A stretch of 64,000 nucleotides of DNA. Origin: an uncultured Chloroflexota bacterium. Its GTDB lineage: Bacteria; Chloroflexota; UBA11872. The notes under the pieces are model-generated. The model had not been told where the DNA came from. It ran no database searches and saw only the letters and a list, made by a program, of their open reading frames with translations. Position numbers and translations under genes: made by a program. Location of the stretch: the NCBI GenBank assembly GCA_958296175.1, contig OY282448.1, forward strand, positions 62,001 through 126,000. The letters are read 5' to 3'. Numbering within the stretch: position 1 is the stretch's first letter; every line of letters starts with the position of its first letter. Below are positions 9,141 through 28,873 of this stretch, in pieces.

Positions 9141-9263
9141 TCATGTTTTCTGTCGAGCGCGCGGACGGCGGCGCGGGGCCGCGCGGATTGCCGCGCCTGA
9201 ACGGCCGCGACGCGCCGGGTGGAACGGGAGGGTCGACTCGGCTGCGTCTGCGGACGCCGCCCG

Positions 9264-10106: not shown

Positions 10107-10264
10107 GGGAAGCTCCTGAACCTCAGACCGCCGCAGTAGAGCCGCGGGCGCCGCCGTGTGTCAACTGGCGCGCCGCGCGGCCTGGGCGCGTTCGAGCGCG
10201 CAGTCAGCCGCAGGGCGGTTCGCCGCGCAGGCGGGCGGCCAGTGGGCAGTCAAATGCATGCGCA

Positions 10265-10819: not shown

Positions 10820-11013
10820 GGGCTCCGTCGGCGCGCGGTGGTCACGAGATCGTCCGCGGCGTGCGACCGTCAGACTACGCGCTCGCCTCCAGCGAGCGCA
10901 GAACGAATGAACGCGGACCAGGGATGAGCCGTGGACCAGAGATGCCGTGGGCAAGGAATGGACGAATCCGTGCCTGGAGGGTACCGTGAGCGCGACGCTT
11001 GCGGTTTGGTGGC

Positions 11014-11787: not shown

Positions 11788-11829
11788 CGAGCGCGCGCGG
11801 CGGGGTTCGGTGAGCGGCGGCGGGGTTCG

Positions 11830-12015
11830 GTGAGCGGCGGCAGGGAGCGTCGCATCGAGCATCTGCGCAACATCGGGCCGGTCACCGCGGGGCGGCTGGC
11901 CGTCCTGGGCGTCCACATGGCGGCGGACCTGGACGCGCTGGCCGGCCGCGGCGATTCAGACGGGGGGCGGGCGTCCACGCCCCTCTGCTTCCCAGGGCGG
12001 CGGCAGACGGCCTAG
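11830..12015 (+). pseudogene. Short ORF resembling TfoX C-terminal/helix-hairpin-helix segment
   Basis: A GTG-initiated 61-codon frame reads RIEHLRNIGPVTAGRLAVLG near its start, which resembles the TfoX C-terminal domain (L-x-N-I-G-P followed by a second helix). The later part (STPLCFPGRRQTA) looks non-homologous, so this is probably a truncated remnant. The frame is preceded by a tandem pair of GGCGGGGTTCGGTGAGC units (11,798-11,840), and the GTG lies in the second copy. It may equally be a small intact gene. Confidence 0.35.
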
Positions 12016-12055
12016 ACTTGCCCGAGTGCGCGGCGCACGGCGGGGGGGCGGTGAG

Positions 12056-12259
12056 ATGGCGTTTCTGGGCAACCTGGTGCGCGGCATTCTGACCAGCGTC
12101 ATCACGCGCTACGCGTTCCTGTTCGTCTCGGCCGTGCTGCTGCCCTTCAGCCTGCGGCATCCGGTGCTGGCCGCAGCCGTGCTGGCGGTACTGGCCGCGG
12201 CGGGGTATCTGCTGTTCACCTACCAGCGCCAGGGCGGCGGCGGGGAGCGCAGGGACTGA
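12056..12259 (+). CDS. Small membrane protein (67 aa)
   Basis: The product has two predicted membrane segments: ITRYAFLFVSAVLLPFSL and LAAAVLAVLAAAGYLLFTY. Its short basic/Gly tail is probably cytosolic. GGTGAG lies just upstream of the ATG. No family is recognised. It converges with the RbsD/FucU gene, whose stop is only 7 bp away. Confidence 0.6.
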   Translation: MAFLGNLVRGILTSVITRYAFLFVSAVLLPFSLRHPVLAAAVLAVLAAAGYLLFTYQRQGGGGERRD

Positions 12260-12266
12260 GCGGCGG

Positions 12267-12692
12267 CTATAGCACGCCCTTTTTTAGGATCAGGTTGCCG
12301 TAAAGCCGCCGTTCGCCGGTGGCCGCGACCGCAAAGGCCTGGCGCGCGCGCTCGTAGAAGGCGAAGCGCTCCACACGCTCGAACTGCACGTCCGCGCCGT
12401 GCGCCCGCTGGGCGATCTGGCGGAAGTCGGCCACGATGGACGGCTCGGCGTCAGGGTCGCCCACCACGGCCATGACGGCGGCGGGCGCGTCTACGAAGTC
12501 GTCCAAGGGCAGCAGCGACAGGATCGCCTCGGCGGCGCGCGTGGCGGTGATTCCGTCCAGCCGCACCAGCCGCCGCGCGTTGGCCTCGGCGGGGAAGTTG
12601 GCATCCACGACGGCAATCTCATCGCCGTGCCCCATCGCCGCCAGCACCCGCAGCAGGTCCGGCCCCAGCAGCGGATCGATTCCCTTCAACAT
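12267..12692 (-). CDS. RbsD/FucU-family sugar mutarotase
   Basis: This 141-residue protein is of the RbsD/FucU family, which interconverts alpha and beta anomers of ribose or fucose. The N-terminus MLKGIDPLLGPDLLRVLAAM followed by GHGDEIAVVDANFP is the family hallmark, with the catalytic His in GHGD. The C-terminus ERRLYGNLILKKGV is also typical of FucU. The FucU branch is more likely than RbsD, but the sugar is not proven. It is divergent from the large membrane protein gene that follows. Confidence 0.88.
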   Translation of the reverse strand: MLKGIDPLLGPDLLRVLAAMGHGDEIAVVDANFPAEANARRLVRLDGITATRAAEAILSLLPLDDFVDAPAAVMAVVGDPDAEPSIVADFRQIAQRAHGADVQFERVERFAFYERARQAFAVAATGERRLYGNLILKKGVL

Positions 12693-12791
12693 GGCAGTAT
12701 CCCTTCACGCTCGCCTGGCCGCATGCTGGCACAGCGGCCGGCAGCCCGAGGGATTCCGCACGCGGCCTTCGCCCGCGGAGCGTCCGTTGCA

Positions 12792-15116
12792 ATGCTCCAG
12801 AAGCAGCGGGGGCAGAACCCGCCTGGACGCTGCCGCAGCGCACGCAGACGCGGCGGAGCGAGGATTTGGGGGGCGCGTCATGCTCATGCCTGGCGCGCGG
12901 TTGGTGGTATCGTTACGCCGCAGACGGCCTTCTGGATACATTCCTCGATCTCTCGGTCAATCGCTCGGCCGCGCACGGCTTGGCGCGGCTGGCTTCCATA
13001 CGCCGTACTTATCGCCGTCCCGCTGCTGCTGTACGCGCCGATGCTGGTCTACTCGCTGACCACGCCCTTCAGCCTGGTCGACGACTATCACGACTGGGGA
13101 GTCACCCGCATCTTCGACAGCCCGGACGTCTTCATCCGTTGGATCGACTTACAGTTCCGTTGGGATATGCGTCTGGACCCGAATAGATACCGTCCGTTGT
13201 GGCACTTCAACACCGCCGTGATATGGAACGTCTTCGGCCCCACGCCGTGGCCGCATCACTTGCTCCGATGGGTGATCCATTTTGGCGCCGCGGCAATGTT
13301 TGCCGCCGCGTTTCTCTCTGTTTCCAAGGCCGAGCGGCCCGCGGCGTCCAAGCTCAGCGTGATCCTATCCCTGTCCGTCCTGGGCTATCTCTTGCTCTTC
13401 TTTCCCAATCAGCCAGCTGCGCCGCTGGGCGCCACGGAAAAGTACACCGTCTTCTTCCTGGGCCTCTGCACCTGGATGGCCGCCCTGACGCTCGCCCGTC
13501 ACGACCGGGAATCAACGGCCCGCGCAACACGCCTGACCTACGGCCTGTTCTTCCTCGGCTATCTCGGCCTCGCCGTGTCCAAAGAGACGAACCTCGCCGT
13601 CATGCTCTGGTTGCTGGCGGCGTACTTTGCCTACGTCGTGATCATCGCTCCACACTTCCGGCGGAGACGACTGCAGGTCTCGGGGAGCGCCCGACGCAAC
13701 CAGCCCACCGCATCCATTCGCCCCCCCCTCTCGAATTATGTCGAGCTCCCGCGCACGCTCGCACTTCTGGGCGGTTTGCCGCTCGTCCTGGTCTTCGCTT
13801 ACACGCTGGCCAAGGTGTACGGCGTCTGGAGCTTCCAAAGCTACGGCATGTCGCCGATAACGCCGAATCTCGTTCGGGACAACGCCGGCTGGATTCTTCG
13901 AGAACTCTTTCAGCTCGACACCTCCCTCGTCATCACCCTCGGTCTGGCCGCCCTCTCGGTGGCGCTGCTGCTCGCTCTTGCCGCCAATGCCGCCGCGCGT
14001 CGATTCGACCCTGCGTTCGTCTTCGTCATTTTTCTTCTCGGTCTATTCGTCAGTATGTTTCTCATCTTCTGCACGTCCTGGAGTCAGGCTCTGCGCTACT
14101 GGTATCCCCTCGTCCCCGTGTTTGCCATACTGTTGGCCTGGGCAACATCGTTCGTCTTCCAATTCGCCGCGCACCTGCGCCGGCGTCTGTCCGTCCGCTC
14201 GGGCCGCGCCTCCATCCTTGCCCATCCCATATTCAATCCAGAACGCGCAGCGGCAGTTCTGCTTGGTGTCTTCGTCGTGTTCTTCACCGTTAGCAACTAC
14301 TTCAACTTCCTCATGCAAACCGTGGTGCAGCACCGCGCGCGCCATGCGGACGCCGACGTCTTGACCGAAATTACGCAGCTGCACGACCAGGGTCAATACG
14401 TCCAGCTCTGGCGCGAGAAACCGCCGCCACCATTACCGCCTCGACGACTCTCTAAAAAACTCGCGGATTACTTTCATGAATTCCTGCCCTACTTCTACGG
14501 CGGCACGTATGACATCCATACGTCCGCACCGACCGAACCCGGACGGCTGCATTACGTCGTCCGAGCTACGCCTGCCGACGCGTCGCAGTATTCCCACGCG
14601 CTGCCGAACGATTATTGGCCCCTCGCCTTCGCGCAACGCGCCGCCGCCCTCTTCCAGGCCGGACGGCCCTACTGGCGCATCAACGACATCACCGGCATAC
14701 CGATATGGCACGTGTACGCCAGCGACGGGCGCACGTTGTGGAGCAACGGGCAGGAGTTTCGGCGCCTCATCGAAAGCGCAGGCGCGCCGGTCGTCCGCGG
14801 GGTCTTCGACGTCTATACCGCCGACGGCCTTCTGGTCTATCGGAAAGAGTCGTGCACGACCGCGGACACCGAGGCGGCCTTCTTCCTGCACGTCACTCCG
14901 CTCGACCCGGCCGACCTGCCGCGCGAGCGGCGGCCGCACGGCTTCGACAACCTGGACTTCCGATTCGATCAGCGCGGCGTGCGCCTGGGCGGGGCGTGCG
15001 TTGCGACGGTTCCGCTGCCGGCGTACCCCGCCGCCAGCCTGCGGACCGGCCAGTACGTCCCCGGCGAGGGCAGCGTCTGGGAGGGCGAGGCCGCCGTCCG
15101 GACGGCGGCGCCCTGA
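12792..15116 (+). CDS. Polytopic membrane protein, paralogue A (glycosyltransferase-like)
   Basis: This is a large integral membrane protein of about 774 residues. From 12,988 on there are roughly ten hydrophobic segments (for example WLPYAVLIAVPLLLYAPMLV), then a soluble C-terminal region of about 250 residues. That region contains QEFRRLIESAGAPVVRGVFD, FFLHVTPLDPADLP, HGFDNLDFRFD and VPLPAYPAASLRTGQYVPG. The overall plan resembles GT-C-fold (DUF2029/GT39-like) membrane glycosyltransferases, but I see no decisive active-site motif. The start is uncertain: the ATG at 12,792 is the nearest in-frame one, and there is no in-frame ATG, GTG or TTG close to the first membrane helix. It is nearly identical to the gene at 24.1-26.4 kb. 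Confidence 0.75.
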   Translation: MLQKQRGQNPPGRCRSARRRGGARIWGARHAHAWRAVGGIVTPQTAFWIHSSISRSIARPRTAWRGWLPYAVLIAVPLLLYAPMLVYSLTTPFSLVDDYHDWGVTRIFDSPDVFIRWIDLQFRWDMRLDPNRYRPLWHFNTAVIWNVFGPTPWPHHLLRWVIHFGAAAMFAAAFLSVSKAERPAASKLSVILSLSVLGYLLLFFPNQPAAPLGATEKYTVFFLGLCTWMAALTLARHDRESTARATRLTYGLFFLGYLGLAVSKETNLAVMLWLLAAYFAYVVIIAPHFRRRRLQVSGSARRNQPTASIRPPLSNYVELPRTLALLGGLPLVLVFAYTLAKVYGVWSFQSYGMSPITPNLVRDNAGWILRELFQLDTSLVITLGLAALSVALLLALAANAAARRFDPAFVFVIFLLGLFVSMFLIFCTSWSQALRYWYPLVPVFAILLAWATSFVFQFAAHLRRRLSVRSGRASILAHPIFNPERAAAVLLGVFVVFFTVSNYFNFLMQTVVQHRARHADADVLTEITQLHDQGQYVQLWREKPPPPLPPRRLSKKLADYFHEFLPYFYGGTYDIHTSAPTEPGRLHYVVRATPADASQYSHALPNDYWPLAFAQRAAALFQAGRPYWRINDITGIPIWHVYASDGRTLWSNGQEFRRLIESAGAPVVRGVFDVYTADGLLVYRKESCTTADTEAAFFLHVTPLDPADLPRERRPHGFDNLDFRFDQRGVRLGGACVATVPLPAYPAASLRTGQYVPGEGSVWEGEAAVRTAAP

Positions 15117-15195
15117 CGGGTGACCCGCTCGGGACGGATTCGCGCCGGCGCCGCGCTAAGCTTGGGCGAACGCCGTCGCCGCGAGACGCCGATGC
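12874..15195 (+). repeat. Long direct repeat, copy A (2.3 kb)
   Basis: This segment is highly similar to 24,149-26,430 in the same orientation. Similarity starts at GGCGCGTC(A/G)TGCTCATGCC, runs through the membrane protein gene and continues about 75 bp past its stop (ACGGGTGACCCGCTCGGGAC). The two copies differ by substitutions and small indels in a few loops, for example after the second membrane helix. Confidence 0.85.
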
Positions 15196-15980
15196 CTGCG
15201 CCTGCCGACTATGCCGAGCTGGTTGCGCGGGTGGCTGCGGCGTCCACGGCGGAGGGACTGACGCTGACCCGGCGCCCGATCGACGAGCTGGGGCTAGATC
15301 TGCTGCGTGTGGACGTGGCCGCGCAGACGGCGGATGCGGCGCGCGTGGGGCTGTTTGCGGGGGTGCACGGCGACGAACCCGCCGGCGTGGCCGCGGCGCT
15401 GGAGTTCCTGGAGGAGCGGCGCTGGACGCGGCATCCGTCCGTGGCCTTCAGCGTCTTTCCCTGTCTGAATCCCACCGGCTTCACGCTGGGCACGCGCGAG
15501 AACGCGGACGGCGTGGACATCAACCGGCAGTACGACCGCGACGACACGCCGGAGACGCGCACGCTGCGGGCCATGGTGAAGCACGACGCCTTCGACGCCT
15601 TCATCGACGCGCACGAGGACCCGGACGAAGACGGGTTCTACGTATACGCCTTCCTGGAAGACCCCGCCTGGCACCCGTCGATAGTGCAGGCCGTGGCCGA
15701 GCGCGGGCCGGTGACCGGCAAGGCCGAGGTGGACGAGACGCCGGTGGAGGCGGGGCTTATTTCGGTGGGCGAGGGCCGCACGCAGGCCGAAGCGTTTCAG
15801 GAATACATGCAGGGCGGCGACTGGCCGCTGCCGTTCTATCTGTACTCGCGCGGCATGCGGTCGGGCATGACCACCGAGACGCCGGGGCAGATCGACCTGG
15901 CCACGCGCGTGGCCATGCAGCATGCGGCGCGCGCGCGGCTGCTGGAGCTGCTGGCGGCCGCCCGACGAAAGGGCGCCTGA
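15192..15980 (+). CDS. Succinylglutamate desuccinylase/aspartoacylase-like M14-family protein
   Basis: This 262-residue zinc-dependent carboxypeptidase-like protein is of the AstE/ASPA (M14) superfamily. The zinc site is visible as GVHGDEPAG (His and Glu, near residue 57) and IDAHEDPDED (His). NPTGFTLGTRENADGVDINR is the typical substrate-pocket segment. It is expected to hydrolyse an amide bond in an N-acyl amino acid or a peptide-like substrate. The ATG at 15,192 is chosen; a GTG at 15,120 would add residues without homology. Confidence 0.85.
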   Translation: MPAPADYAELVARVAAASTAEGLTLTRRPIDELGLDLLRVDVAAQTADAARVGLFAGVHGDEPAGVAAALEFLEERRWTRHPSVAFSVFPCLNPTGFTLGTRENADGVDINRQYDRDDTPETRTLRAMVKHDAFDAFIDAHEDPDEDGFYVYAFLEDPAWHPSIVQAVAERGPVTGKAEVDETPVEAGLISVGEGRTQAEAFQEYMQGGDWPLPFYLYSRGMRSGMTTETPGQIDLATRVAMQHAARARLLELLAAARRKGA

Positions 15981-16052
15981 AGTGCGCGCACCCAGCGCGG
16001 GGAGCGTCGGAACGCGCCGCGCCGCGCCGCCGCTTCCAACGGAGGCTGCCGT

Positions 16053-16964
16053 ATGACCGCCAGCCGCATGCCCGTCATCGACGTGCACATGCACGTGGGC
16101 GCTTACGAACCGCAGGACTGGATGCCCGGCATGCTGCCCGTCTCGAACCGGGGGCAAAGCCCGCGCGACATGCTGCGCTGCATGGACGCGGCCGGGGTGG
16201 ACATGGCCGTCATGCACACGTGCGACGTGTGGGGCATGCGCTACGCCGCGCGCATGCTGCGCGAGCACGGGGAGCGCTTCATCGGCGTCTGCAAGGTGGA
16301 CGGCGGCACGGCGCACTTGCGCACGGCGCTGGACGCCATCCCGCGGCACGTGGACGAGGAAGGGTTCCGCGGGCTGTACTTCGACCCCTGGCCGCCGGCG
16401 CTGGACGCCTTCCGCAACTTCCACGCGCCGACCTACCGCCCGCTCTGGGACCTGGTGCAGGCGCTGCGGCTGCCCGTGTGCGTGGTGTCCTATGGGACCG
16501 ACTCGCCGGACCTGTTCGCGGGGCTGGTCGGCCTGCTGGACCGCTATCCCGACCTGACGGTGACGGTGGTGCACGGGCTGTACGTGGGGCGCAAGACGCC
16601 GCCGGGTCTGATCGACGCGGACGGCCGCGTGCACGTCGAGCCGTCCATCGTCGAGCTGGTGCGGGACTGCGACGTGTACCTGGAAATCCTGGCCGGCTAT
16701 CCTGGGGCCTGGTTCGGACCCGACGACGCGGTGCTGCAATGTCTGTACAATACGTTTGGGCCGCGCAAGCTGTTGTGGGGGTCGGAATTCACCAAAGCCA
16801 ACGCGCTCAGCCAGGAGCAGGCACGCTCGCCGACGTTCTACGCGCGGCAGGTGGGCTACCTGCGCGACCACTGCCCGTACATCCCGGCCGCCGACCGCGC
16901 CTGGATTCTGGGCGGCAACGCGGCGCGCATTTACGGCGCGGGGCCGCTGCCGGCCGATGAATGA
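16053..16964 (+). CDS. Amidohydrolase-2 family protein
   Basis: This 303-residue TIM-barrel metal-dependent hydrolase belongs to the amidohydrolase_2 family (ACMSD-like). The N-terminal metal motif is VIDVHMHVG. The HxH residues, a His in TVVHGLYVG and the C-terminal WGSEFTKAN give the expected layout, although the usual final Asp appears as Glu in GSEF. Related proteins decarboxylate or hydrolyse aromatic or lactone substrates; the substrate is unknown here. GGAGG lies 7 bp before the ATG. It overlaps the next gene by 8 bp. Confidence 0.87.
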   Translation: MTASRMPVIDVHMHVGAYEPQDWMPGMLPVSNRGQSPRDMLRCMDAAGVDMAVMHTCDVWGMRYAARMLREHGERFIGVCKVDGGTAHLRTALDAIPRHVDEEGFRGLYFDPWPPALDAFRNFHAPTYRPLWDLVQALRLPVCVVSYGTDSPDLFAGLVGLLDRYPDLTVTVVHGLYVGRKTPPGLIDADGRVHVEPSIVELVRDCDVYLEILAGYPGAWFGPDDAVLQCLYNTFGPRKLLWGSEFTKANALSQEQARSPTFYARQVGYLRDHCPYIPAADRAWILGGNAARIYGAGPLPADE

Positions 16965-17349
16965 CGGAGACTCGCTGACGCGCATGATCCTGCGAACCGC
17001 GCTCTTTTCGCTCTGGCTGCCGCTGGCGGTGCTGGCGGTGACGCTCGTGCGCTTGCAACGGCTGCCGGCGGGCGGCGACGCCGTCATGCTCCTGGCGCTG
17101 CTCTGGCCGACGGCGGTTCCGCTGACGCTGGCCGTGCTGCTGTTGCACCGCCGCACGCGCGTGACCGCCTACGCCTGCGCCGTGGTGTTCGGGTTGCTGT
17201 CGGTGTATGCCACCATCGTCGGCGGGCTGTTCGGGCCGCCGTTCGTCGTGATTTACGTCGCCGTGGTGTCGCTGCCGGCCTGGATTGCGCTTGGGATCGT
17301 CGGGCTGGTGCACCGCAGCCGCAGAAATCCGGACATGACGAGCGTCTGA
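16957..17349 (+). CDS. Small polytopic membrane protein (130 aa)
   Basis: The product has four predicted membrane segments, including TALFSLWLPLAVLAVTLV, AVMLLALLWPTAVPLTLAVL and VVIYVAVVSLPAWIALGIV, with a basic C-terminal tail. No family is recognised. Its start overlaps the end of the amidohydrolase gene by 8 bp, so it is translationally coupled to it. A strong hairpin about 100 bp downstream probably ends the transcript. Confidence 0.65.
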   Translation: MNDGDSLTRMILRTALFSLWLPLAVLAVTLVRLQRLPAGGDAVMLLALLWPTAVPLTLAVLLLHRRTRVTAYACAVVFGLLSVYATIVGGLFGPPFVVIYVAVVSLPAWIALGIVGLVHRSRRNPDMTSV

Positions 17350-17448
17350 CGCCTGCGGCCTGCGGCGTCAGACGTGACCGCGCAGCCGGTTCTCCACCCT
17401 CGAATCGACGCGCGGGGAGCGGTGCCAGCTCGGCCGAAGAACATCAGA

Positions 17449-17480
17449 GCGGCGGGCGGGGCGTCTGCCCCGCCCGCCGC
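17449..17480. terminator. Strong bidirectional hairpin terminator candidate
   Basis: The perfect 14 bp stem GCGGCGGGCGGGGC / GCCCCGCCCGCCGC encloses the loop GTCT. On the plus strand it is followed by a pyrimidine-rich TTCCTCTTCT. It lies between two convergent genes (17,349 plus strand and 17,497 minus strand), where a shared terminator is expected. Confidence 0.7.
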
Positions 17481-17496
17481 TTCCTCTTCTCCGCCG

Positions 17497-17664
17497 CTAC
17501 CCCAGCAGAACCAGGATCAACATCACCGCGGCCATAACGCCAATCCCGATGGCGGCGACGCCGATGGCCCAAGCGGTCGTCACGGCTTCCTTTCGCAGGA
17601 TGGCGAAGCCAACGATTGGCGCTCCGACGGCCACGATCACGAACAGGAGGAGAGGGTTCATCAT
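17497..17664 (-). CDS. Small two-helix membrane protein (55 aa)
   Basis: The product begins MMNPLLLFVIVAVGAPIVGF and has a second hydrophobic segment near its C-terminus (IGIGVMAAVMLILVLLG). It may act as a small membrane subunit or a stress peptide; no family is recognised. It follows a 46-codon frame with a strong ribosome binding site by 10 bp, so the two could form a mini-operon. The ATG at 17,661 is an alternative start. Confidence 0.55.
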   Translation of the reverse strand: MMNPLLLFVIVAVGAPIVGFAILRKEAVTTAWAIGVAAIGIGVMAAVMLILVLLG

Positions 17665-17674
17665 GATGACTGTC

Positions 17675-17815
17675 TCACGTCTGAGTCCCAGCTGCCGAGT
17701 TCGCCAGTCGCCAGGACCTTCTTCGTGACCCACGCGACTCGGCAACCGATGCCGCAAAACCTACCCTCGCCGCGGTTCGCGGCGTGCGAATGGCTGCGGC
17801 CGCCTTATTCGTCAT
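17675..17815 (-). CDS. Possible small basic peptide (46 aa)
   Basis: This short frame starts MTNKAAAAIRTP and is Ala/Arg-rich. The argument for it is the strong Shine-Dalgarno sequence AGGAGGT placed 5-6 bp before its ATG, the best in this neighbourhood. The amino acid composition is not convincing and no family is recognised. It may be a leader peptide for the membrane protein that follows 10 bp downstream. Confidence 0.35.
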   Translation of the reverse strand: MTNKAAAAIRTPRTAARVGFAASVAESRGSRRRSWRLANSAAGTQT

Positions 17816-17956
17816 TTCCAACCTCCTGGCGGTTGGGTCACGACGACGTTGTCGCTCTATCCATCGATAGCACAGAAATCGAGAGCTGTCAGCCACGTCA
17901 GCGTCTACGTGCGTCCCTCTTGGCTCCGGCCAAGCCGCGGGCGCTTCGCACGGGCC

Positions 17957-19351
17957 TCAGAAGATGTCTTCGGGATCCGGCGGCCGGCGCAGGTGGTGGT
18001 CGGTCGCCTGTTGAAAGGCGTGGCCGACGCGCAGCACCGTGGCGTCGTCGAACATGCGGCCCACGATCTGCAGGCCGGCAGGCAGGCCGTCCACGAACCC
18101 CATGGGTACCACGAGCGCCGGATGCCGCGAGGCGTTGAACAACGAGGCGTGCAGCGTGTCGTTGGCGCGGGGGTCGAAGGGCTGGATGGGTTCCGCCGGG
18201 TAGGGATAGGCCGGGCTCAGCAGGACGTCGCGCGAGGTCAGGGCCGCGGACACCGCGGCCTGGATGGCCGCGCGCGCCTCCAGCCCCTGGATATAGTCCA
18301 TGGCGGAGGCGCCCGAGCCCACCGCCAGGCGGTCGCGGATGGGCGCCGCGATGGAGCTGAAGTCGCCGCCGAACATGGCGTGGACGCTCACGTAGCCCTG
18401 GGAACGCGAGGCCACCTGCGCGCCTTTGGGGTTCAGGTCGGCAGGCAGCGCCCAGGCGTCGAGCGACACGCCCAGGCCCTCGAGCGCCGCCAGCGCCTGC
18501 CGAAACAGCGCGCGAATCCCTGGCTGCGCGTCGTCCGCAAAGTCCTGAATCACCCCGGCGGCCAGACCGCCCACGTCATGGCCGATTCCGGCCGCGTAAG
18601 CCCCGGCGGGCCGCGGCAGCGCGTCGGGGTCCTGCGGGTCTGGCCCGGCGATGGTTTCCAGCAGCAGGGCGCAGTCGGCCGCCGAGCGCGCCAGGGGGCC
18701 AATGTGGTCGTAGCTGCGCACCAGCGGGCGCGCGCCCGTGCGGCCCACCAGCCCGAAGGTGGGCTTGAGGCCGCTGACGCCGCTCATGTGCGCCGGAATC
18801 CTGACCGACCCGCCCGTGTCGGTGCCCAGCGCGGCCGGGGCCATGCCCGCGGCCACGGCGGCCGCCGAGCCGCCGGAGGACCCGCCGGGATGGCGCGTCG
18901 AATCCCAGGGGTTGCGCGTGGGGCCGAAGTGGGGGTTGTCGGTGGTGATGCCGCGCGCCAGCTCGTGCGTGTTGGTCTTGCCCAGAATCACGGCCCCGGC
19001 CGCGCGCAGGCGCCGCACCACGTGCGCGTCGGCGGCGGGGACGTGGGCGCGGTACCTGGCCGACCCGTAGGCCGTGGGCGTGCCGGCGGTGTCGATGACG
19101 TCTTTCACCGCCGCGGGAACGCCGTCCAGCGGCCCGAGCCGCCGGCGCGCCGCCGTGCGCGCGTCGGACGCCTGGGCCTCGGCCAGCGCCGACGCAGCCA
19201 TGACCTGCACGTAAGCGTTGACGGCGGGGTCGAGCCGCTCGATGCGCGCCAGCAGGGCCTCCGTCAGCTCCAGCGAGGTCAGACTGCCGCCGGCGAGCGC
19301 GGCGGCGGCCTCGCCGAGGCCGAGCCAGGCGGGCGGGCGGGCGTCGGGCAT
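17957..19351 (-). CDS. Amidase (amidase signature family)
   Basis: This 464-residue protein has the amidase-signature fold with a Ser-cisSer-Lys triad. The Lys lies in PAAVKDVIDTAG, the cis-Ser in HPGGSSGGSAAAV, and the nucleophile Ser in LGTDTGGSVRIPAH. The length and the C-terminal FNASRHPALVVPMGFVDGLP fit the GatA/AtzF-type branch. It is not obviously GatA: no gatB or gatC gene lies nearby, so it more likely hydrolyses a small amide in catabolism. It is divergent from the phytanoyl-CoA dioxygenase gene, with about 140 bp between them. Confidence 0.92.
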   Translation of the reverse strand: MPDARPPAWLGLGEAAAALAGGSLTSLELTEALLARIERLDPAVNAYVQVMAASALAEAQASDARTAARRRLGPLDGVPAAVKDVIDTAGTPTAYGSARYRAHVPAADAHVVRRLRAAGAVILGKTNTHELARGITTDNPHFGPTRNPWDSTRHPGGSSGGSAAAVAAGMAPAALGTDTGGSVRIPAHMSGVSGLKPTFGLVGRTGARPLVRSYDHIGPLARSAADCALLLETIAGPDPQDPDALPRPAGAYAAGIGHDVGGLAAGVIQDFADDAQPGIRALFRQALAALEGLGVSLDAWALPADLNPKGAQVASRSQGYVSVHAMFGGDFSSIAAPIRDRLAVGSGASAMDYIQGLEARAAIQAAVSAALTSRDVLLSPAYPYPAEPIQPFDPRANDTLHASLFNASRHPALVVPMGFVDGLPAGLQIVGRMFDDATVLRVGHAFQQATDHHLRRPPDPEDIF

Positions 19352-19488
19352 GGCGGCTCTCCGCGGTCGTTCGGGACGTGGCGCGGTTCACCGTAGCAGC
19401 TTGGCCAGCGCGGCCAGCGGCCAGGGATACGCGGGCGGCGCGTTGTGCCAGAATCTGCCCACGGGCGCTTCCACCAGCAGGTGACGCG

Positions 19489-20286
19489 ATGTCGAATGTC
19501 CACGCCGACGAATTGCGCGACCGCGGCGTCACGCTGATCGAGGACGTGATTCCCGCCGCGGCCGTGGACGGGGTGCGCGACCGCGTGCGCGCCGACATCC
19601 TGGCTCACAACGACACGGACATTCCCGCGCTGGGCAAAGCCTCCAACCTGCTGCGCTTCAATCAGGATCTGGCGCCCTACCTGTGCCATCCGCGTCTGAC
19701 GGACACCCTGGAAGCCGCGCTGGGGCCGGGGTTCCGGCTCTCGTTCTTTACCGGGTTCGTGACCGGGCCGGGCCGCGCGCGCGACGTGTGGCACGCGGAC
19801 TGGCCCTTCAACCAGGAGCACACCACCAAAATCCCGGCGCCCTATCCCGACATTGCCGTGCACCTGACCACGTTTTGGATGCTGACGGACTTCACGGTGG
19901 AGAACGGCGCCACGATCGTCATGCCCGGCAGCCACAAGCTGGGCGACCATCCGCGCGCGGGCGGACCGTTCGGCGAGAGCATGACCCCGCGCGACGATGA
20001 AGAGCGGCTGATTGGACGGGCGGGGTCGGTTGGCATCGTGGACAGCCGCCTGTGGCACGCGGTGTCGCCGAACGTGACCGCCCAGGACCGCGTGGCCGTG
20101 GTGATTCGCTACGCCGCCTGGTGGCTGAACCTGGGACCCACCAGGTCGAGCTCGCAGGAATACGACCCGACCTACCACAAGTCGCGGATCGACGACCTGC
20201 CGCCAGAGGTCTACGCCGACCTGCCGCCAGCGCTGCAAGCCCAGGTGCGGCACATGCTGCCGCCAGGGGCCGCCGTTCCGAGCTAG
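19489..20286 (+). CDS. Phytanoyl-CoA dioxygenase (PhyH) family protein
   Basis: This 265-residue Fe(II)/2-oxoglutarate-dependent oxygenase is of the PhyH family. The iron ligands are the HxD of DVWHADWPF and the distal His in SRLWHAVSPN; the 2-oxoglutarate-binding Arg is likely in RVAVVIRYAAW. The strand VENGATIVMPGSHKLG is highly typical. The substrate cannot be inferred. The ATG at 19,489 is chosen over an earlier frame start because family homology (RDRGVTLIEDVI) begins right after it. Confidence 0.92.
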   Translation: MSNVHADELRDRGVTLIEDVIPAAAVDGVRDRVRADILAHNDTDIPALGKASNLLRFNQDLAPYLCHPRLTDTLEAALGPGFRLSFFTGFVTGPGRARDVWHADWPFNQEHTTKIPAPYPDIAVHLTTFWMLTDFTVENGATIVMPGSHKLGDHPRAGGPFGESMTPRDDEERLIGRAGSVGIVDSRLWHAVSPNVTAQDRVAVVIRYAAWWLNLGPTRSSSQEYDPTYHKSRIDDLPPEVYADLPPALQAQVRHMLPPGAAVPS

Positions 20287-20299
20287 GGCTGCCACTCTT

Positions 20300-20526
20300 C
20301 CCTCTCCCCGCGCTGCGGGGAGAGGGTTAGGGTGAGGGGCGGCCGCCGCGCCAGATGGGAAGACTCTTCGTCTTCGCGCAGCGCTCCACGGGCATGGTCT
20401 GCTTCACGCCAGCTCCCCCCCCTCACCCTGCCCTCTCCCTCCAGGGAGAGGGAAAGAAAAGACGCAGGCCGGGCGCGCGCCGGCTTCCCCTTCAGCCTGC
20501 CTTCTCCTTGGAGGGAGAGGGCAGGG
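20300..20526. repeat. Cluster of three CCCTCTCCC/GGGAGAGGG palindromes
   Basis: Three copies of the palindromic element lie at 20,300-20,326 (12 bp perfect arms), 20,431-20,452 and 20,498-20,526 (imperfect). They fill the 263 bp gap between the convergent PhyH and VOC genes and could act as transcription terminators. Nothing else is seen in the gap. Confidence 0.8.
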
Positions 20527-20549
20527 ATCGAGGGAACGGAGGAACGCTG

Positions 20550-20933
20550 TTAGCCGAAGGTTCCGTCGTTGCGTTGGTGCAGAATTATTGGGTTGCCGTC
20601 GGGGTCGGCGATGACGGCGAAGCGGCAGGATCCGGGGACTTCGATGAGTTCGGCCGCGACGTGCGCGCCGGCCGCGCGCGCGGATTGCAGCGCCGCCTCC
20701 ACGTCCTCGCAGGCCAGGGCTACGGCCGGGCGCATGCCGGCGCCGCTGGAGGCCACCGGCGCGCTCTGCGAGGCGTCCAGCGCAATGGTCACGCCGCCGG
20801 CTTCGAACTCGACCCAGACGCCGTCGCCGTACGACCCCTTCGGCTCCAGCCCCAGAACGCCGCGGTAAAACGCTTCGGCCCGCGGCATGTCGGCCACGGG
20901 GTAGTAGATGAAATCGACGCCGCGCACACGCAT
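20550..20933 (-). CDS. VOC-family (glyoxalase/bleomycin-resistance-like) protein
   Basis: This 127-residue protein is of the vicinal-oxygen-chelate superfamily. It starts MRVRGVDFIYYPVADM and follows the pattern RAEAFYRGVLGLEP, typical of the first beta-alpha-beta module. The closing FAVIADPDGNPIILHQ is the usual last strand. Most such proteins are metal-dependent lyases, isomerases or drug-binding proteins; the function is unknown here. The ATG at 20,933 is chosen because homology starts there. Confidence 0.88.
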   Translation of the reverse strand: MRVRGVDFIYYPVADMPRAEAFYRGVLGLEPKGSYGDGVWVEFEAGGVTIALDASQSAPVASSGAGMRPAVALACEDVEAALQSARAAGAHVAAELIEVPGSCRFAVIADPDGNPIILHQRNDGTFG

Positions 20934-21084
20934 GGAACGCGCTCCTCGAAGGCTCTGTGCGCCTGCCAGCCTACACGGCGTGCGTAGCATGAAGCAGGCG
21001 CGCGGTCAGGAAGAACTGCGACGGTGCGCCGCGGGGCCGTCCCGCAGCATGGCGCACCGTATCGATACCTAAGGAGGCGCGTCG

Positions 21085-21450
21085 ATGGCGAACAACGTGG
21101 TGCACTGGGAAGTCACCGGCAAGGACGGGCCGGCATTGCACGAGTTCTTTGCGAACCTGTTCGACTGGGACGTTTCCACCGACAACCCCATGAACTACGG
21201 CGTGGTGGCGGCGGATCCCGACGGCGGCGCCGGCATCGGAGGCGGCATCGGCCAGACGTTCGACGGCTCGGCCGGGCACGTGACGTTCTACGTGGGCGTG
21301 GACGACGTGACGGCCGCGCTGGAAAAGGCCGTGCGCCTGGGCGGCGCGATTCTGATGCCGGAGACGAACGTGATGGAAGGCGTGACCATCGGCCACTTCG
21401 CCGACCCGGAGGGCCACGTGATTGGGCTGGTGAAGAACGAGCCGATGTAA
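21085..21450 (+). CDS. VOC-family protein
   Basis: This 121-residue vicinal-oxygen-chelate protein is of the CFP32/DUF-like type that pairs two beta-alpha-beta modules. It begins MANNVVHWEVTGKDGPALHE, has FFANLFDWDV in the first module and ends with GHFADPEGHVIGLVKNE. It has a very strong ribosome binding site, TAAGGAGG, 9-10 bp before the ATG. It differs from the VOC protein at 20.6-20.9 kb and the two are divergent. Confidence 0.88.
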   Translation: MANNVVHWEVTGKDGPALHEFFANLFDWDVSTDNPMNYGVVAADPDGGAGIGGGIGQTFDGSAGHVTFYVGVDDVTAALEKAVRLGGAILMPETNVMEGVTIGHFADPEGHVIGLVKNEPM

Positions 21451-21466
21451 GAGAGGCGCGGGGAAG

Positions 21467-23557
21467 CTAGCCGCCGTGGAAGACAGCGCGGCCTTCCCAT
21501 AACCGGCGATCCGAGCCGTCGCCGCTCCGGACGTATTGGCCCGTGCGCACGGCGGCGATGGAGTAGGCGGGCAGCGGGACCTTTGCAACGAGGCGGCGGC
21601 TGGGCAGGCTGTGGTCGTCGAATTGGAAATCGCGGTTGTCGAACCCGTGCCGCCGCCGCTCCTCGGCGAGGCTCCCCGGGTCGACTGGCTCGACGTGCAG
21701 AAAGAACATGGGGTCAGCTTTGGCGCCGGCGTTTGCCACGTACCAGAGGTCGGCGCCGTGCCGATACACGTCGAACGCGCCGCGCACCAGCGGCTCGCCG
21801 GCCGCGGCGATGGTCTGGTCGATCCAGCGTTCGAAGCTGGATTCGAAGCTGGCCAGATCGAAGAGGTATAACTCCTGGTTCTCGGGCGTCGCAGACACGG
21901 CGCCTCCCGGCCGCTCGCGCGTGACGATGACGTCTGCCTGGTCGGGACCTCCCAGCACCAGTCCCGCGAAATAAACGTGCACGTACGGCGCCATACCCGT
22001 GTGCCAGACCGTCCAGTCCGCCCTGACGCTCGAGTCCACGTACACGACTTTGCCCGCCGCGCGGCGGCGAATCTCCTCGACGTCGGCGATCACCGAGCGC
22101 TGGACGCCGACCTGCTGAACGTCGAGTCCGACGAAGCTCATCTTCCAGCTGGAGAACACGAAGACGAGCAGCGCGGCGGCGGCGAGGCCAACGACCAGCC
22201 GCACGCCAAAGCTGCGCTGGAGCCACCGCAGCCCCAGGAATGACACGACCAAAGGAATGCCGAGGTGATACATGCTCTCGAAATCGTGAAGCGCGGAGCT
22301 GTGGCGGAACGGCAGCACCCAGAAAAATCCGGTCGACGCCAGCGCGGCCAGCGGCAGCCGCTCGCGGACGAACGCCAGGCCGATCAGGCATGCGGCGACG
22401 GCAACGGCGCCGATGACGACGCCCTGCACGCCCATCGGCCCGACCCAGTCCTCGCCCAGCCCGAACTGGTAGCCTGGCAGGCCGAATGGGAGCGACAGTC
22501 CGCCAATACGGTAGAACTCACTCGCCAGGAAATTTCCCCAGTTCAGCGCATCGGCGTACTCCGCGGTGAAGCCTGGATCGAACCCAGCGCGATACCGCAT
22601 TGCATTGAACGAGGGCAAGTCGGTTAGTCCGACTTCACCGTTCAGCGCGCGGTATTCGTTGACGAAGTTGAAGCCGAGGACAGCCAGGCCGAAGAGCAGC
22701 GTAACGACGCCGAGCGTCAGATAGCGGTTGCGCAGCAGCGCCCACAGCAGCCGCCCGCCTTCACGCCAGCCAGTGAGGAAGGGACGTGCACGCCGTGGAT
22801 CGACAGACGAATTACGCGCGGAGTGATCCTGTGGCGCTCGCCATTTTCTAAACAGCTCGCCCGCAAGACCGAGGATGATAAACGGCAGCACGAGCGCATA
22901 CACGTGCCAGTCCAACAGCAACGCCGCGCATGCCTTGAGCAGCAGCTGCCGGAAGCGGCCGTCCTGGACGAAGACGACCATGCCGTGGAACGCCAGCATT
23001 ACCCCGAACAGACCGAGCCCGTTGTCGGTGGATACCATGTCGTTGTAATACAGGAAATACCACGACGAGAAAGTGAGCAGCGTTGCGGTCAGCGCGACCC
23101 AGCGGCTGGCCGCGAGCCGGCTCATGGAGAGATACGCCAGAAGCGCGGTTGCCGCATAGAACACCAGCATCATCATGCGCGCCGCCAGTATCTGCGCCGC
23201 GAGGCTCTCGCTGAAGGGACGAATGATCAGCTTGAGCAGCAGGTAGCCGCCGATGGGGAAGCGGTTGTAGGGTATGTAGGTGATGGTTCCGTCGGCATTC
23301 ATCCCCTGCGTCAGAAACATCAGGAAGTCATGCGCCGGCGAGAGATTGGCCGCCAGCTTCAAGCTCTGCACCGTCAGATATGTGTGGTGGATGGGCCGGT
23401 AGAGAACGTCGCGAGCGTGGCCAAACACGAACACGCTGGCCAGCGCCAGCAGCAGCAACAGCAGCGGGACGTGCGGCCAGAGCGGCGAGGCTCTGAGCCT
23501 GTCGACCCAACCGCCGAGGCGGACGCGGACGCGGAGCGCGGCGTCAGCGGGCGTCAT
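21467..23557 (-). CDS. Polytopic membrane protein, paralogue C (shared C-terminal domain)
   Basis: This 696-residue integral membrane protein has about ten to twelve hydrophobic segments (for example VPLLLLLLALASVFVFGHA and LTLGVVTLLFGLAVLGFNFV). Its last ~190 residues share a domain with the two duplicated membrane proteins in this window: GEPLVRGAFDVYRHG, FFLHVEPVDPGSLAEERRRH, GFDNRDFQFDD, KVPLPAYSIAAVRTGQYV. The membrane part is clearly more distant from those paralogues. The architecture again suggests a GT-C-like glycosyltransferase or polymer-export protein, but no catalytic motif is certain. It converges on the VOC gene with only 16 bp between the stops. Confidence 0.75.
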   Translation of the reverse strand: MTPADAALRVRVRLGGWVDRLRASPLWPHVPLLLLLLALASVFVFGHARDVLYRPIHHTYLTVQSLKLAANLSPAHDFLMFLTQGMNADGTITYIPYNRFPIGGYLLLKLIIRPFSESLAAQILAARMMMLVFYAATALLAYLSMSRLAASRWVALTATLLTFSSWYFLYYNDMVSTDNGLGLFGVMLAFHGMVVFVQDGRFRQLLLKACAALLLDWHVYALVLPFIILGLAGELFRKWRAPQDHSARNSSVDPRRARPFLTGWREGGRLLWALLRNRYLTLGVVTLLFGLAVLGFNFVNEYRALNGEVGLTDLPSFNAMRYRAGFDPGFTAEYADALNWGNFLASEFYRIGGLSLPFGLPGYQFGLGEDWVGPMGVQGVVIGAVAVAACLIGLAFVRERLPLAALASTGFFWVLPFRHSSALHDFESMYHLGIPLVVSFLGLRWLQRSFGVRLVVGLAAAALLVFVFSSWKMSFVGLDVQQVGVQRSVIADVEEIRRRAAGKVVYVDSSVRADWTVWHTGMAPYVHVYFAGLVLGGPDQADVIVTRERPGGAVSATPENQELYLFDLASFESSFERWIDQTIAAAGEPLVRGAFDVYRHGADLWYVANAGAKADPMFFLHVEPVDPGSLAEERRRHGFDNRDFQFDDHSLPSRRLVAKVPLPAYSIAAVRTGQYVRSGDGSDRRLWEGRAVFHGG

Positions 23558-24101
23558 ACGCGCACAGCGGGGCCGCGGCGAACGTCACGGAAGGGGCGAG
23601 CCGCGAACCCGGCCCGCACCCTGGAGGCGCCGGTTGCCGTCTGACGCTGGGTTGCCGCACCGTATCGAGACCCCCGTACCGCGGACACCGTATCCACGCA
23701 CGGAGCCGGCTGTTCGCGGGAATGACGGTTGGTATCACATACATGCATCGTGCGGCGCGCGCCGGCAGAAATCTCGGGGCCGCCAGACGGCGCACATCGT
23801 ACACGCCGACGGCTCGCCTGTGCCCTCGCGCGGCGCGGGCGCGGCGACCGCGTAGTGCTCGGCGGCGTGCGGCTGCCGCGCCCCCCTCACCCCGACCCTC
23901 TCCCCCTGGGGAGAGGGGGGAGAACGGATCGGAGGCCGCCCATGCAGGCGAGGGCGCGCGTGTGATGCTGCGGCGCTGCTCTCCCCCGGGGAGTGGGGGA
24001 AGAGAAGAAGCGTGCGCGGGCGCGGGCTCCGGCTGTCGGCGCGGCCCTTGCTTTGTCGGTGTGGAGGTGCACGGGCGCGGGGCCGGGCTGTCCGATGATT
24101 C
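23558..24101. repeat. Spacer with dispersed palindromic repeats
   Basis: This 544 bp stretch has no supportable gene. It contains an ATTCCCGCGAACAG-type copy on the minus strand (23,693-23,728) and a CCCTCTCCCC/GGGGAGAGGG palindrome at 23,896-23,917. A second short hairpin, CTCTCCCCCGGGGAGT, lies near 23,980. It must also contain the upstream region of paralogue B. Confidence 0.6.
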
Positions 24102-26369
24102 ATGGTCGCTGACGGGGGGAGCGGCGGGGAAGAGGGTTTGGGAGCGGCGCGTCGTGCTCATGCCTGGCGCGCGGTTGGTGGTATCGTCACGCCGCAGACG
24201 GCCTTCTGGATACGTTCCTCAATCGCTCGATTAATCGTTCGGTCGCGCACGGCTTGGCGCGGCTGGCTTCCATACGCCGTGCTTCTTGCCGTCCCAGTGC
24301 TGCTGTACGCGCCGGTGCTGGTCTATTCGCTGACTACGCCCTTCGGCCTGATCGACGACTATGGCGACTGGAAGTTCACCCGCATCTTCGACAGTCCGGA
24401 CATCTTCATCCGTTGGATCGACGGACGGATCCGTTGGGATACGAGTGGGGGTCTAGACCATCTGGACCTGAAGAGATACCGGCCGTCGTGGCAACTCATT
24501 ACCGCCGCGGCATGGAACGTCTTCGGCCCCGCGCCGTGGCTGCATCACTTGCTCCGATGGGTAATCCATTTTGGCGCCGCAGCAATGTTTGCCGCCGCGT
24601 TTCTCTCTGTTTCCAAGGCCGAGCGCCGCGCGCGCCCCGCAGTGTCCAAGCTCAGCGTGATCCTGCCTCTGAGCGTCCTGGGCTATCTCGTGCTCTTCTT
24701 TCCCAATCAGCCAGCGGCGCGGCTGTCTCCGCCGGAACATTACACCGTCTTCTTCCTGGGCCTCTGCACCTGGATGGCCGCCGTGACGCTCGCCCGGCAC
24801 GACCGGGAACCAACGGCCCGCGCAACCCGGCTGACTTATGGCCTGTTCTTCCTCGGCTATCTCGGTCTCTCCGGGTCCAAAGAGACGAACCTCGCCGTCA
24901 TGCTCTGGTTGCTGGCGGTGTACTACGCCTACGTCGTGATCGCCGCTCCGCGCTTTCGGCGGAGACGCCTGCAGGTCTCGGGGAGCGCCCGACACACCCA
25001 ACGCGCCGCGTCCATTCGCCCCTCCCCGCTGGAACTTCTGGGCGGAGTGCCGCTGGTCCTGGTCTTCGCTCACACGCTGGTCGAAGTGTACCGCGTCTGG
25101 AGCCTCCAAGGCTACGGCACGTCGACCATAACGCCGAATCTCGTTCGGGACAACGCCGGCTGGATTCTTCGAGAACTCTTTCAGCTCGACACCTCCCCCG
25201 TCATCACCCTCGGTCTGGCCGCCCTCTCGGCGGCGCTGCTGCTCGCTCTTATCGTCAAAGCCGCCGCGCGTCGATTCGACCCTGCGTTCGTCTTCGTCAT
25301 TTTTCTTCTCGGTCTATTCGTCAGTATGTTTCTCATCTTCTGCACGTCCTGGAGTCAGGCTCTGCGCTACTGGTATCCCCTCGTCCCCGTGTTTGCCATA
25401 CTGTTGGCTTGGGCCGCAACCTTCGTCCTCCAATTCGCCGCGCACCTGCGCCGGCGGCTGGCCAACCGCTCGGGCCGCGCCTCCATCCTTGCCCATCCCA
25501 TATTCAATCCAGAACGCGCGGCCGCGCTTCTGCTTGGCGCGTTCGTCGTGTTCTTCACCGCCAGCAACTACTTCAACTTCCTCGTGCAAACCGTCGTGCA
25601 ACACCGCGCCCGCCACGCGGACGCCAACGTCCTGACCGAAATTACGCGGCTGCACGACCAGGGTCGATACGTCCAGCTCTGGGACGAGAACCCCACCGAA
25701 CCGTATGACAGGCTCCTGGATTACTTTCGCGAATTCCTGCCTCGCTTCTACGGCGGTACGTATGACATCCACACGTCCGCACCGACCGAACCCGGAAGGC
25801 TGCATTACGTCGTCCGACCTACGCCTGTCGACGCGTCGCAGTACTCCCACGCGCTGCCGCAGGACTATTGGCCCCTCGCCTTCGCCGAACGCGCCGCCGC
25901 CGTCTTCCAGGCCGGGCGGCCCTACTGGCGCTTCGACGACGGCGCCCACGTACCGATATGGCACGTGTACGCCAGCGACGGACGCACGTTTTGGAGCGAC
26001 GGGCAGGAGTTTCGGCGCCTCATCGAAAGCGCAGGCGCGCCGGTCGTCCGCGGCGTCTTCGACGTCTACACCGCCGGCAATTTTCTGGTCTATCGGAAGG
26101 CGTCGTGCACGACCGCGGACACCGCGGCGGCGTTCTTCCTGCACGTCACCCCGCTCGACCCGGCCGACCTGTCCCGCGGGCGGCGGCCGCACGGCTTCGA
26201 CAACCTGGACTTCCAATTCGATCAGCGCGGCGTGCGCCTGGACGGAGCGTGCGTTGCGACGGTTCCGCTGCCGGCGTACCCCGCCGCCAGCCTGCGGACC
26301 GGCCAGTACGCCCCCGACGAGGGCAGCGCCTGGGAGGGCGAGGCCGCCGTCCGGACGGCGGCGCCCTGA
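24102..26369 (+). CDS. Polytopic membrane protein, paralogue B (glycosyltransferase-like)
   Basis: This 755-residue protein is nearly identical over most of its length to the protein at 12.8-15.1 kb, with the same order of membrane segments and the same ~250-residue C-terminal domain. Differences cluster in the first extracytoplasmic loop (FGLIDDYGDW against FSLVDDYHDW, with a short insertion of TSGGLDHLD) and in the segment before the C-terminal domain. The ATG at 24,102 and an in-frame TTG at 24,138 are both possible starts. As with its twin, sequence alone does not prove the enzymatic role. Confidence 0.78.
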   Translation: MVADGGSGGEEGLGAARRAHAWRAVGGIVTPQTAFWIRSSIARLIVRSRTAWRGWLPYAVLLAVPVLLYAPVLVYSLTTPFGLIDDYGDWKFTRIFDSPDIFIRWIDGRIRWDTSGGLDHLDLKRYRPSWQLITAAAWNVFGPAPWLHHLLRWVIHFGAAAMFAAAFLSVSKAERRARPAVSKLSVILPLSVLGYLVLFFPNQPAARLSPPEHYTVFFLGLCTWMAAVTLARHDREPTARATRLTYGLFFLGYLGLSGSKETNLAVMLWLLAVYYAYVVIAAPRFRRRRLQVSGSARHTQRAASIRPSPLELLGGVPLVLVFAHTLVEVYRVWSLQGYGTSTITPNLVRDNAGWILRELFQLDTSPVITLGLAALSAALLLALIVKAAARRFDPAFVFVIFLLGLFVSMFLIFCTSWSQALRYWYPLVPVFAILLAWAATFVLQFAAHLRRRLANRSGRASILAHPIFNPERAAALLLGAFVVFFTASNYFNFLVQTVVQHRARHADANVLTEITRLHDQGRYVQLWDENPTEPYDRLLDYFREFLPRFYGGTYDIHTSAPTEPGRLHYVVRPTPVDASQYSHALPQDYWPLAFAERAAAVFQAGRPYWRFDDGAHVPIWHVYASDGRTFWSDGQEFRRLIESAGAPVVRGVFDVYTAGNFLVYRKASCTTADTAAAFFLHVTPLDPADLSRGRRPHGFDNLDFQFDQRGVRLDGACVATVPLPAYPAASLRTGQYAPDEGSAWEGEAAVRTAAP

Positions 26370-26430
26370 CGGGTGACCCGCTCGGGACGGATTCTTGACG
26401 GCGCCGCGCCAAGCTCGAGCGAACGCCGCG
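24149..26430 (+). repeat. Long direct repeat, copy B (2.3 kb)
   Basis: This is the second copy of the repeat described at 12,874-15,195. It has the same orientation and lies about 9 kb away. Downstream similarity fades after CGCCGCGCCAAGCT near 26,415. Confidence 0.85.
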
Positions 26431-26476
26431 GCCGCTGGTTAGACTAGGGCTTCGCGCCGCAACGTCGAGGGTTCCC

Positions 26477-27451
26477 ATGGTCCGAGCCGCTTTCATCGGA
26501 GCTGGCCGCCGCGCGTCCAGCGCGCATTACCCGGCGCTGGCGCGGGCGCATCGGCGCGTGGAATTGACAGCCATGTGCGAGCTGGACGAGGAGCGGCTGG
26601 CCGACACGGCCGATCAGTACGACATCGAGGGCCGCTACACCGACGTCCGCCAGATGCTGGAGCGCGAGGACCCGCAGGTCGTGTATGCGGTCACGCGCCC
26701 GCCCGACATTGCCGACATCGCGGTGGAAGTTCTGGCGGCCGGCGCGCACCTGTTCATCGAGAAGCCGCCGGGCGTGGGGTCGGCCGACGCGGAGCGCATC
26801 GCCGCGGCCGCCCAGGAACATAACCGCCTGGTGTGCGTGGGCTTGCAGCGCCGCTGGACGCCTCTGACCCGCGCCGCGCGCGCGCGTGTGGAGGCCGACG
26901 GCCCGGTCATGCTGGCCAGCGCCGGCATGAGCAAGAACCTGCTGACGGACGACCAGGGCGGGCGCACCATCAACCGGCTCTACGAGCAGGACATCCACAT
27001 GGTGGACTTCCTGCGCTGGCTGTGCGGCGGAACCTGGGACCAGGTGCTCACGCGCGGCGACGACGCTTACACCGGCTGGATGAGCACCTATAACTCGATC
27101 ATTCACTTCACCAGCGGCGCGGTGGCCGTGCACTCGGTGACCGGCCACGCGGGCGCGCGCCACTACCGCATCGAGATGCACGGCAACGGCATCAGCGCCT
27201 ACCTGCTGCCGCCCATCCACGCCCAGATCTACGCCGACGACCGGCCCGAGCCTGAGATCATCGAGGGCACGCCGATTCCAGGCGGGTCCGGTGCCCTGGA
27301 CGACGGCGTGGACGCGCTGCACGCCGACTTTCTGAACGCCATTGCGAAAGGCCGCCAGCCGCTGACCAACATTCACGACGTCGTTCACACCGTGCGGCTG
27401 CTGGAAGAAATAGGTCACCTCGACCCCACAGGCCAGCCGCGAAAGCGCTAG
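26477..27451 (+). CDS. Gfo/Idh/MocA-family oxidoreductase
   Basis: This 324-residue NAD(P)-dependent sugar or cyclitol oxidoreductase has an N-terminal Rossmann fold (AAFIGAGRRASSAHYPAL) and the family EKPPG motif in HLFIEKPPGVG, with Lys as the conserved catalytic residue. The C-terminal alpha/beta domain includes the conserved QDIHMVDFLRWL with its His. GAGGG precedes the ATG. It is followed by a GH4-type gene after only 9 bp, so the two probably form an operon for carbohydrate oxidation or hydrolysis. Confidence 0.92.
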   Translation: MVRAAFIGAGRRASSAHYPALARAHRRVELTAMCELDEERLADTADQYDIEGRYTDVRQMLEREDPQVVYAVTRPPDIADIAVEVLAAGAHLFIEKPPGVGSADAERIAAAAQEHNRLVCVGLQRRWTPLTRAARARVEADGPVMLASAGMSKNLLTDDQGGRTINRLYEQDIHMVDFLRWLCGGTWDQVLTRGDDAYTGWMSTYNSIIHFTSGAVAVHSVTGHAGARHYRIEMHGNGISAYLLPPIHAQIYADDRPEPEIIEGTPIPGGSGALDDGVDALHADFLNAIAKGRQPLTNIHDVVHTVRLLEEIGHLDPTGQPRKR

Positions 27452-27460
27452 GCGCGCGCC

Positions 27461-28849: not shown

Positions 28850-28873
28850 TCGGGCGCAGATCGACCCCGCGCG

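Follow-up and report, generated by a model that had tools for sequence, protein, structure and literature searches.

Three genes, A, B and P0003, in a 64,000-nucleotide stretch of an uncultured Chloroflexota chromosome (the whole stretch analysed, hereafter the window) probably encode laterally acquired and locally amplified surface enzymes, each composed of a GT-C-type membrane module and an outward-facing, Ig-like binding tail, which entered as insertions of one or two genes. The tail is a C-terminal domain (CTD) that recurs across phyla and is fused to different types of enzyme. The repeat formed by the paralogues A and B is in itself an ordinary gene duplication; what is new is a compact, confidently modelled and unnamed domain, which unrelated phyla carry in tens of copies per genome and which is shared by several classes of surface enzymes. 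If the link to habitat considered below is true, the domain offers a sequence handle on how surface chemistry comes to be shared within a symbiotic community.

Two paralogous membrane-protein genes

A and B have a start-to-start spacing of 11,253–11,298 bp and are the sole full-length copies in the 3.0-Mb, single-contig genome, of which the window covers positions 62,001-126,000. The repeats comprise the following features:

12850..15182, + strand: repeat copy A (homology block, BLASTN); the gene ends at 15116
24121..26435, + strand: repeat copy B (homology block, BLASTN); the longest open reading frame spans 24102-26369
15090..15109, + strand: 20-nt perfect palindrome immediately before the stop codon of A, with an identical one in B at 26343-26362

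A sequence-only reading of the window had described two near-identical direct repeats of approximately 2.3 kb that continue beyond the stop codons. Two such long direct repeats are present, and both extend for about 60 nt past the stop of the one multi-spanning membrane-protein gene that each contains; 'near-identical', however, is too strong a term for an alignment (BLASTN) with 87.9% identity over 2360 columns, 72 of them gap columns. The ungapped identity is 90.4% (2257 columns of the shared block), the proteins are 82–84% identical, and the similarity is far above chance (E = 0). The shared block begins upstream of the membrane protein. In the frame of copy A, the closest upstream ATGs are at 12792 and 12723, and a gene start near 12874 is uncertain because the shared block holds no in-frame start before 13041.

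A misjoined assembly, in which one repeat is a duplicate of the other, has the similarity of A and B in its favour and nothing else; since the copies differ by about 10%, with in-frame indels, and the unique flanks of A and of B are each syntenic in congeners, we regard such an artefact as exceedingly improbable.

Neither protein matched any Pfam family at E values up to 1, and copy A matched no NCBIfam family. A simple hydropathy scan gave nine hydrophobic segments for A and nine for B, and an Asp-Asp-Tyr motif after the first segment is kept in four of four sequences, the topology of A and B being putative. Their membrane part was found in just two more proteins (L104 and L147) when 225 proteins were compared, and a full-length model of B, built from only four sequences, had a pLDDT of 41.5 and was discarded. 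Unlike the ends of a composite transposon with direct repeats, A and B code for membrane proteins without a Pfam match and not for a transposase. A defence system was rejected: PADLOC returned no defence-system match for A, B, P0003 or one protein of group I, the largest set of relatives described below.

Smaller repeats occur elsewhere in the window. Two-copy direct repeats of 111 and 165 nt (spacing 222 and 225 nt, 75–76% alike) lie at 11440-11772 and 55634-56023, and a tandem array with a 45-nt unit at 54005-54329 is probably a segment of an Ala-rich repetitive protein.

Insertions into a conserved gene order

The region 9,000-28,900 of the window was compared with a family-level set of 19 genomes, one of them that of the window, and the loci of congeners were mapped back onto the window. 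The congeners hold the identical gene order without A or B, and the segments are as follows:

12739..15199, + strand: insertion A (ends approximate), absent in 10 of 12 congeners
21461..26423, unstranded: insertion of B with P0003, a divergent pair with its spacer (ends approximate), absent in 11 of 12 congeners
21467..23557, − strand: P0003, the third CTD gene, inserted with B; membrane part related to L052, L056 and L057
15200..21449, unstranded: ancestral syntenic backbone by congener synteny, with Amidohydro_2, Amidase, glyoxalase-type and other genes; 70.4% GC

At the empty A site of the ten congeners the flanks are 93–207 bp apart (the other two genomes, G002 and G008, were uninformative); in the window the left flank stops at 12,693-12,738 and the right one starts at 15,200-15,275. 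At the site of B and P0003, the flanks are 33–98 bp apart in eleven congeners (G002 being uninformative), and the corresponding limits in the window are 21,449-21,460 on the left and 26,424-26,477 on the right. A further locus of the family, L051, which spans 5.8 kb and carries a pair of group I genes, is likewise empty in 9 of the 12 congeners, with flanks 14–54 bp apart. Two insertions can be told apart, A alone and B together with the divergent gene; the metabolic genes between the repeats are the ancestral backbone and the repeats are later arrivals, because the congeners have this segment in the same order without them.

The intervening 9 kb had been read as a set of metabolic genes, PhyH among them, framed by the repeats as an unstable cassette at 15.2–24.1 kb. 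Amidohydrolase_2, Amidase and a glyoxalase/VOC-type gene are present, but the segment also holds the third family gene, and PhyH found no match in the nine frames that were scanned. It is very improbable that recombination between A and B deletes or duplicates the segment and acts as a structural switch for the metabolic genes. The direct orientation, the identity of 87.9% over 2.3 kb and a 149-nt identical run, a possible recombination substrate, would suit such a switch; against this, the congeners hold the segment once, in the same order and without either repeat, so that it is independent of the repeats, and no form with a deletion or a duplication was seen in any of the genomes searched. 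The idea of an unstable cassette was abandoned on these grounds.

The inserted genes have a GC content of 64–65%, against 70.4% in the segment between them, and a GC3 of 79–80%, against 92.5% in the amidase gene; the low GC and GC3 of A and B are a foreign composition for the host chromosome (the chromosome that carries the window). No target duplications were seen at the aligned junctions, where the spacers are too diverged to show them. No match was obtained in plasmids, phages or viral contigs, and a phage or plasmid vehicle was rejected on this basis. The tail common to A and B includes a stretch similar to the one that precedes, in congeners, the next gene after A; as B holds a copy of this A-site stretch besides its own, inspection by eye gives a weak hint that B was copied from A. 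Under the reading that we prefer, lateral acquisition with local amplification, the family genes would have come into the chromosome as compact units of one or two genes, landing in intergenic gaps of the conserved order, and one inserted gene would have duplicated to give A and B.

A stretch of approximately 235 nt at 20235-20470 of the window occurs as two tandem copies (96% identity) at G000:C1:1237211-1237662 and is likely an interspersed repeat.

Divergence and possible gene conversion

A and B appear to be under weak constraint (Ka/Ks 0.60, with Ks 0.149 and Ka 0.089). Across 28 pairs of group I the Ka/Ks ratio is 0.65–0.98; sliding along seven of the group I genes, one sees strong constraint at 156-235 (Ka/Ks 0.12) and point estimates of Ka/Ks above 1 at 76-155, 316-395, 556-595 and 676-715. 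One tract of A and B deserves a line of its own:

13989..14137, + strand: 149 nt without a difference between A and B, a possible gene-conversion tract

A run of this length was reached in none of 2000 shuffles, and a series of 104 successive codons identical in amino acid between A and B and free of silent changes was reached in 2 of 5000. These long identical runs hint at some gene conversion between A and B. Of the earlier proposal of gene conversion with local diversification, what stands is a pair of paralogous genes in direct orientation, with this hint of conversion and with weak constraint. The two copies would have drifted apart after their duplication and been partly homogenised by conversion.

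A C-terminal domain with a predicted Ig-like fold

The proteins A, B and P0003 each carry at their C-terminal end a CTD of about 100 residues:

14790..15104, + strand: CTD of copy A (approximately 105 aa)
26043..26357, + strand: CTD of copy B, predicted Ig-like beta-sandwich (pLDDT 94.4; modelled residues from 26049-26354)
21473..21790, − strand: CTD of P0003, without both conserved cysteines

A scan of 90 copies gave no consistent Pfam or NCBIfam profile match, there being scattered weak matches in one to three members, and judged by these profiles the CTD appears to be an unnamed domain outside the families of both collections. Profile searches of the PDB with the CTD gave no meaningful sequence match. 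No report of the CTD or its context was found among open-licence PMC papers, and the available parts of PMC6306507 and PMC9531527 do not mention it. Both conserved cysteines occur in 258 of 259 distinct CTD copies that passed the length and score limits (a filter that excluded P0003 and partial copies), and the remaining copy has the first only; because P0003 lacks both, a disulfide would not seem to be needed in every copy.

The model of the copy-B CTD, based on an alignment of 90 sequences, is mostly beta, with a mean pLDDT of 94.4. Foldseek against the PDB gave a best E value of 0.021 and none below 0.001. The best VIA-align match was the immunoglobulin-like 9ard_A (Z 7.9, rmsd 3.4, 95 residues), with many Ig/FN3 domains close behind, a Z of 7.9 being in what the tool ranks as the common-arrangement range, from which no ligand can be read. 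The predicted fold of the CTD is an immunoglobulin-like beta-sandwich. It may resemble Ig/FN3 domains in this predicted fold (at the same Z of 7.9), but differs from them in sequence, with 10% identity, and has its own conserved motif and cysteine pair.

The family in the host genome

A search with the last 109 or so residues of A gave 36 matches in the host genome, which lie in 19 open frames with one to three copies in each. Six of these 19 genes lie at 2.979–2.998 Mb, three at 148–159 kb, two at 265–270 kb and three in the window, the other five being single. By their membrane parts they form group I, the A/B pair, P0003 with L052, L056 and L057, and two other groups. Group I has 11 genes, most of which align over long stretches at 70–86% identity; two are short or aberrant. 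PMT was matched by 9 of the 19 family genes and PMT_2 by 8 (Pfam); a scan of genome_contigs with the whole of copy B returned no relatives.

None of the 12 congeners has the CTD, against the 36 copies in 19 genes of the host genome. With the host genome counted in each case, it was found in 6 of the 41 class-level genomes and in 6 of the 400 phylum-level ones; the other carriers in the class have seven copies (G029), six (G033), two (G034 and G037) and one (G017, of the same family as the host). That the window genes are ordinary old paralogues, of a family that was present in the ancestor of the genus and lost in all sampled congeners, would agree with these few copies in G029, G033, G034, G037 and G017. 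We nevertheless consider it improbable: all 12 congeners are without any CTD copy, the junctions at three sites are tight (14–207 bp), A and B have a low GC3 by the standard of the host chromosome, and loss in the congeners requires many parallel and precise losses.

The single CTD of G017 (L064, G017:C25:99940-100230) lies in a putative open frame of 2788 residues. The spacers between family genes (window 23890-24000; group I, e.g. L051 at approximately 12100-12600) contain GC-rich inverted repeats of the CCCTCACCC...CTCTCCC type, and the spacer sequences of L051 were found again at many places in the genome and in congeners.

Partner enzymes and possible role of the CTD

By resemblance, A and B may be GT-C-type enzymes. 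Like glycosyltransferases of the GT-C PMT type, they are rich in hydrophobic segments, and the conserved Asp-Asp pair that follows the first of these may correspond to the acidic motif that PMT enzymes have in their first extracytoplasmic loop; other family members of the host match the PMT and PMT_2 models (PF02366, PF13231). Unlike this type, A and B reach no Pfam model, and the CTD is not part of the PMT models.

A census of partners, in which 41 representatives out of 159 proteins were scanned, placed the CTD also at the C-terminus of arylsulfotransferases, GSDH-cytochrome c (sugar dehydrogenase-cytochrome) proteins and SGNH hydrolases. These enzymes, as well as PMT-like proteins, act outside the cytoplasm, and because its partners do so, the CTD is presumably outside too. 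Its most plausible function would be that of a binding module, which on the outside would hold various surface-modifying enzymes to one common polymer or partner.

The CTD could instead be a sorting or anchoring signal, as known from type IX secretion and PEP-CTERM, a reading that we find unlikely. It is almost always at the extreme C-terminus, in the named loci mostly within some 15 residues of the end and usually 6–15 residues from it, on very different catalytic parts, as such a signal would be. However, most CTD carriers are multi-spanning membrane proteins, and export routes of the type IX or PEP-CTERM kind are not known to handle these. Furthermore, two to four copies were counted in 56 of the 189 open frames of the named loci (one copy in 133, two in 43, three in 11 and four in 2), which is unusual for a signal of this kind.

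Spread across phyla and probable lateral transfer

In named species genomes, 250 CTD loci were confirmed, and their taxonomy rests on the best 80 of the 250, equivalent to 77 loci. All of these 77 belong to 27 metagenome-assembled genomes (MAGs), whose accessions are OY282352-OY282494 or CATQH* and whose labels are Dehalococcoidia, Tepidiformaceae, Caldilineaceae, Nitrospirales, Entotheonella, Binatia, Bryobacterales, Vicinamibacterales, Gammaproteobacteria, Pseudomonadales, Latescibacteria and Spirochaetia; by our own grouping of these records (again for the best 80 of 250 loci), they fall into eight phyla. Whole-genome searches gave 17–65 CTD copies in each of the 27. Of the 196 genomes in the order to which the Nitrospirales record belongs, that record alone has the CTD. 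Among 46 genomes of the family that includes the Caldilineaceae record, 14 have it, and because the other 13 have one or two weaker copies, against 65 in that record, the CTD is not confined to amplified genomes. RpoB puts the host genome among the Chloroflexota records. In view of their sequencing project, the OY282xxx and CATQH records are presumably sponge-derived, and the 27 named records are probably those of sponge symbionts. Their taxa fit two sponge genome notes, as far as the available parts of these go (PMC12586988, PMC12648040).

The CTD proteins appear to have spread across phyla by lateral transfer, because their identity across phyla exceeds that of RpoB. Among 1038 cross-phylum protein pairs with at least 350 residues aligned, the highest identity was 88.3% over 420 residues (Latescibacteria and Binatia), and further pairs reached 85.9% over 759 residues and 84.5% over 714 (the latter Vicinamibacterales and Nitrospirales). 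In eight cross-phylum pairs of records taken from the top of this list, RpoB is 60.6–70.5% identical, with 63.4% for the Latescibacteria–Binatia pair and 68.9% for the Vicinamibacterales–Nitrospirales pair. The copies of the host genome are at most 50% identical to their nearest named-record proteins (at least 350 residues aligned); the nearest match of P0003 among the named records is gammaproteobacterial, at 47%.

On a FastTree phylogeny of 245 CTD copies, in which single branches of so short a domain are not to be trusted, the phylum label needs 50 changes, against 7 for one origin per phylum; in 100 shuffles of the labels the mean was 93.7 changes and the minimum 87. On these counts, the copies are grouped by phylum, yet far from a single origin in each. 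A comparable case is that of the steroid clusters of Ircinia symbionts in sponge microbiomes, which are likewise horizontally shared across phyla: in the available parts of the source, their gene trees conflict with the genome phylogeny in a multi-phylum microbiome that includes Binatota (PMC9531527). Those are other genes, whereas the CTD is a C-terminal module on several types of enzyme, with 17–65 copies per genome. More speculatively, and with considerable doubt, the CTD might be an Ig-like recognition module that has been exchanged among at least eight phyla sharing a habitat, probably sponge tissue, repeatedly fused to useful surface enzymes and amplified to dozens of diversifying copies in each genome, with all of these enzymes aimed at one common target, for example the matrix of the host animal or a surface glycan that is shared.

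In the Nitrospirales record (OY282373), the loci L162 and L168 represent an apparent tandem duplication of approximately 7.2 kb of CTD genes, with pairs of places that have identical scores.
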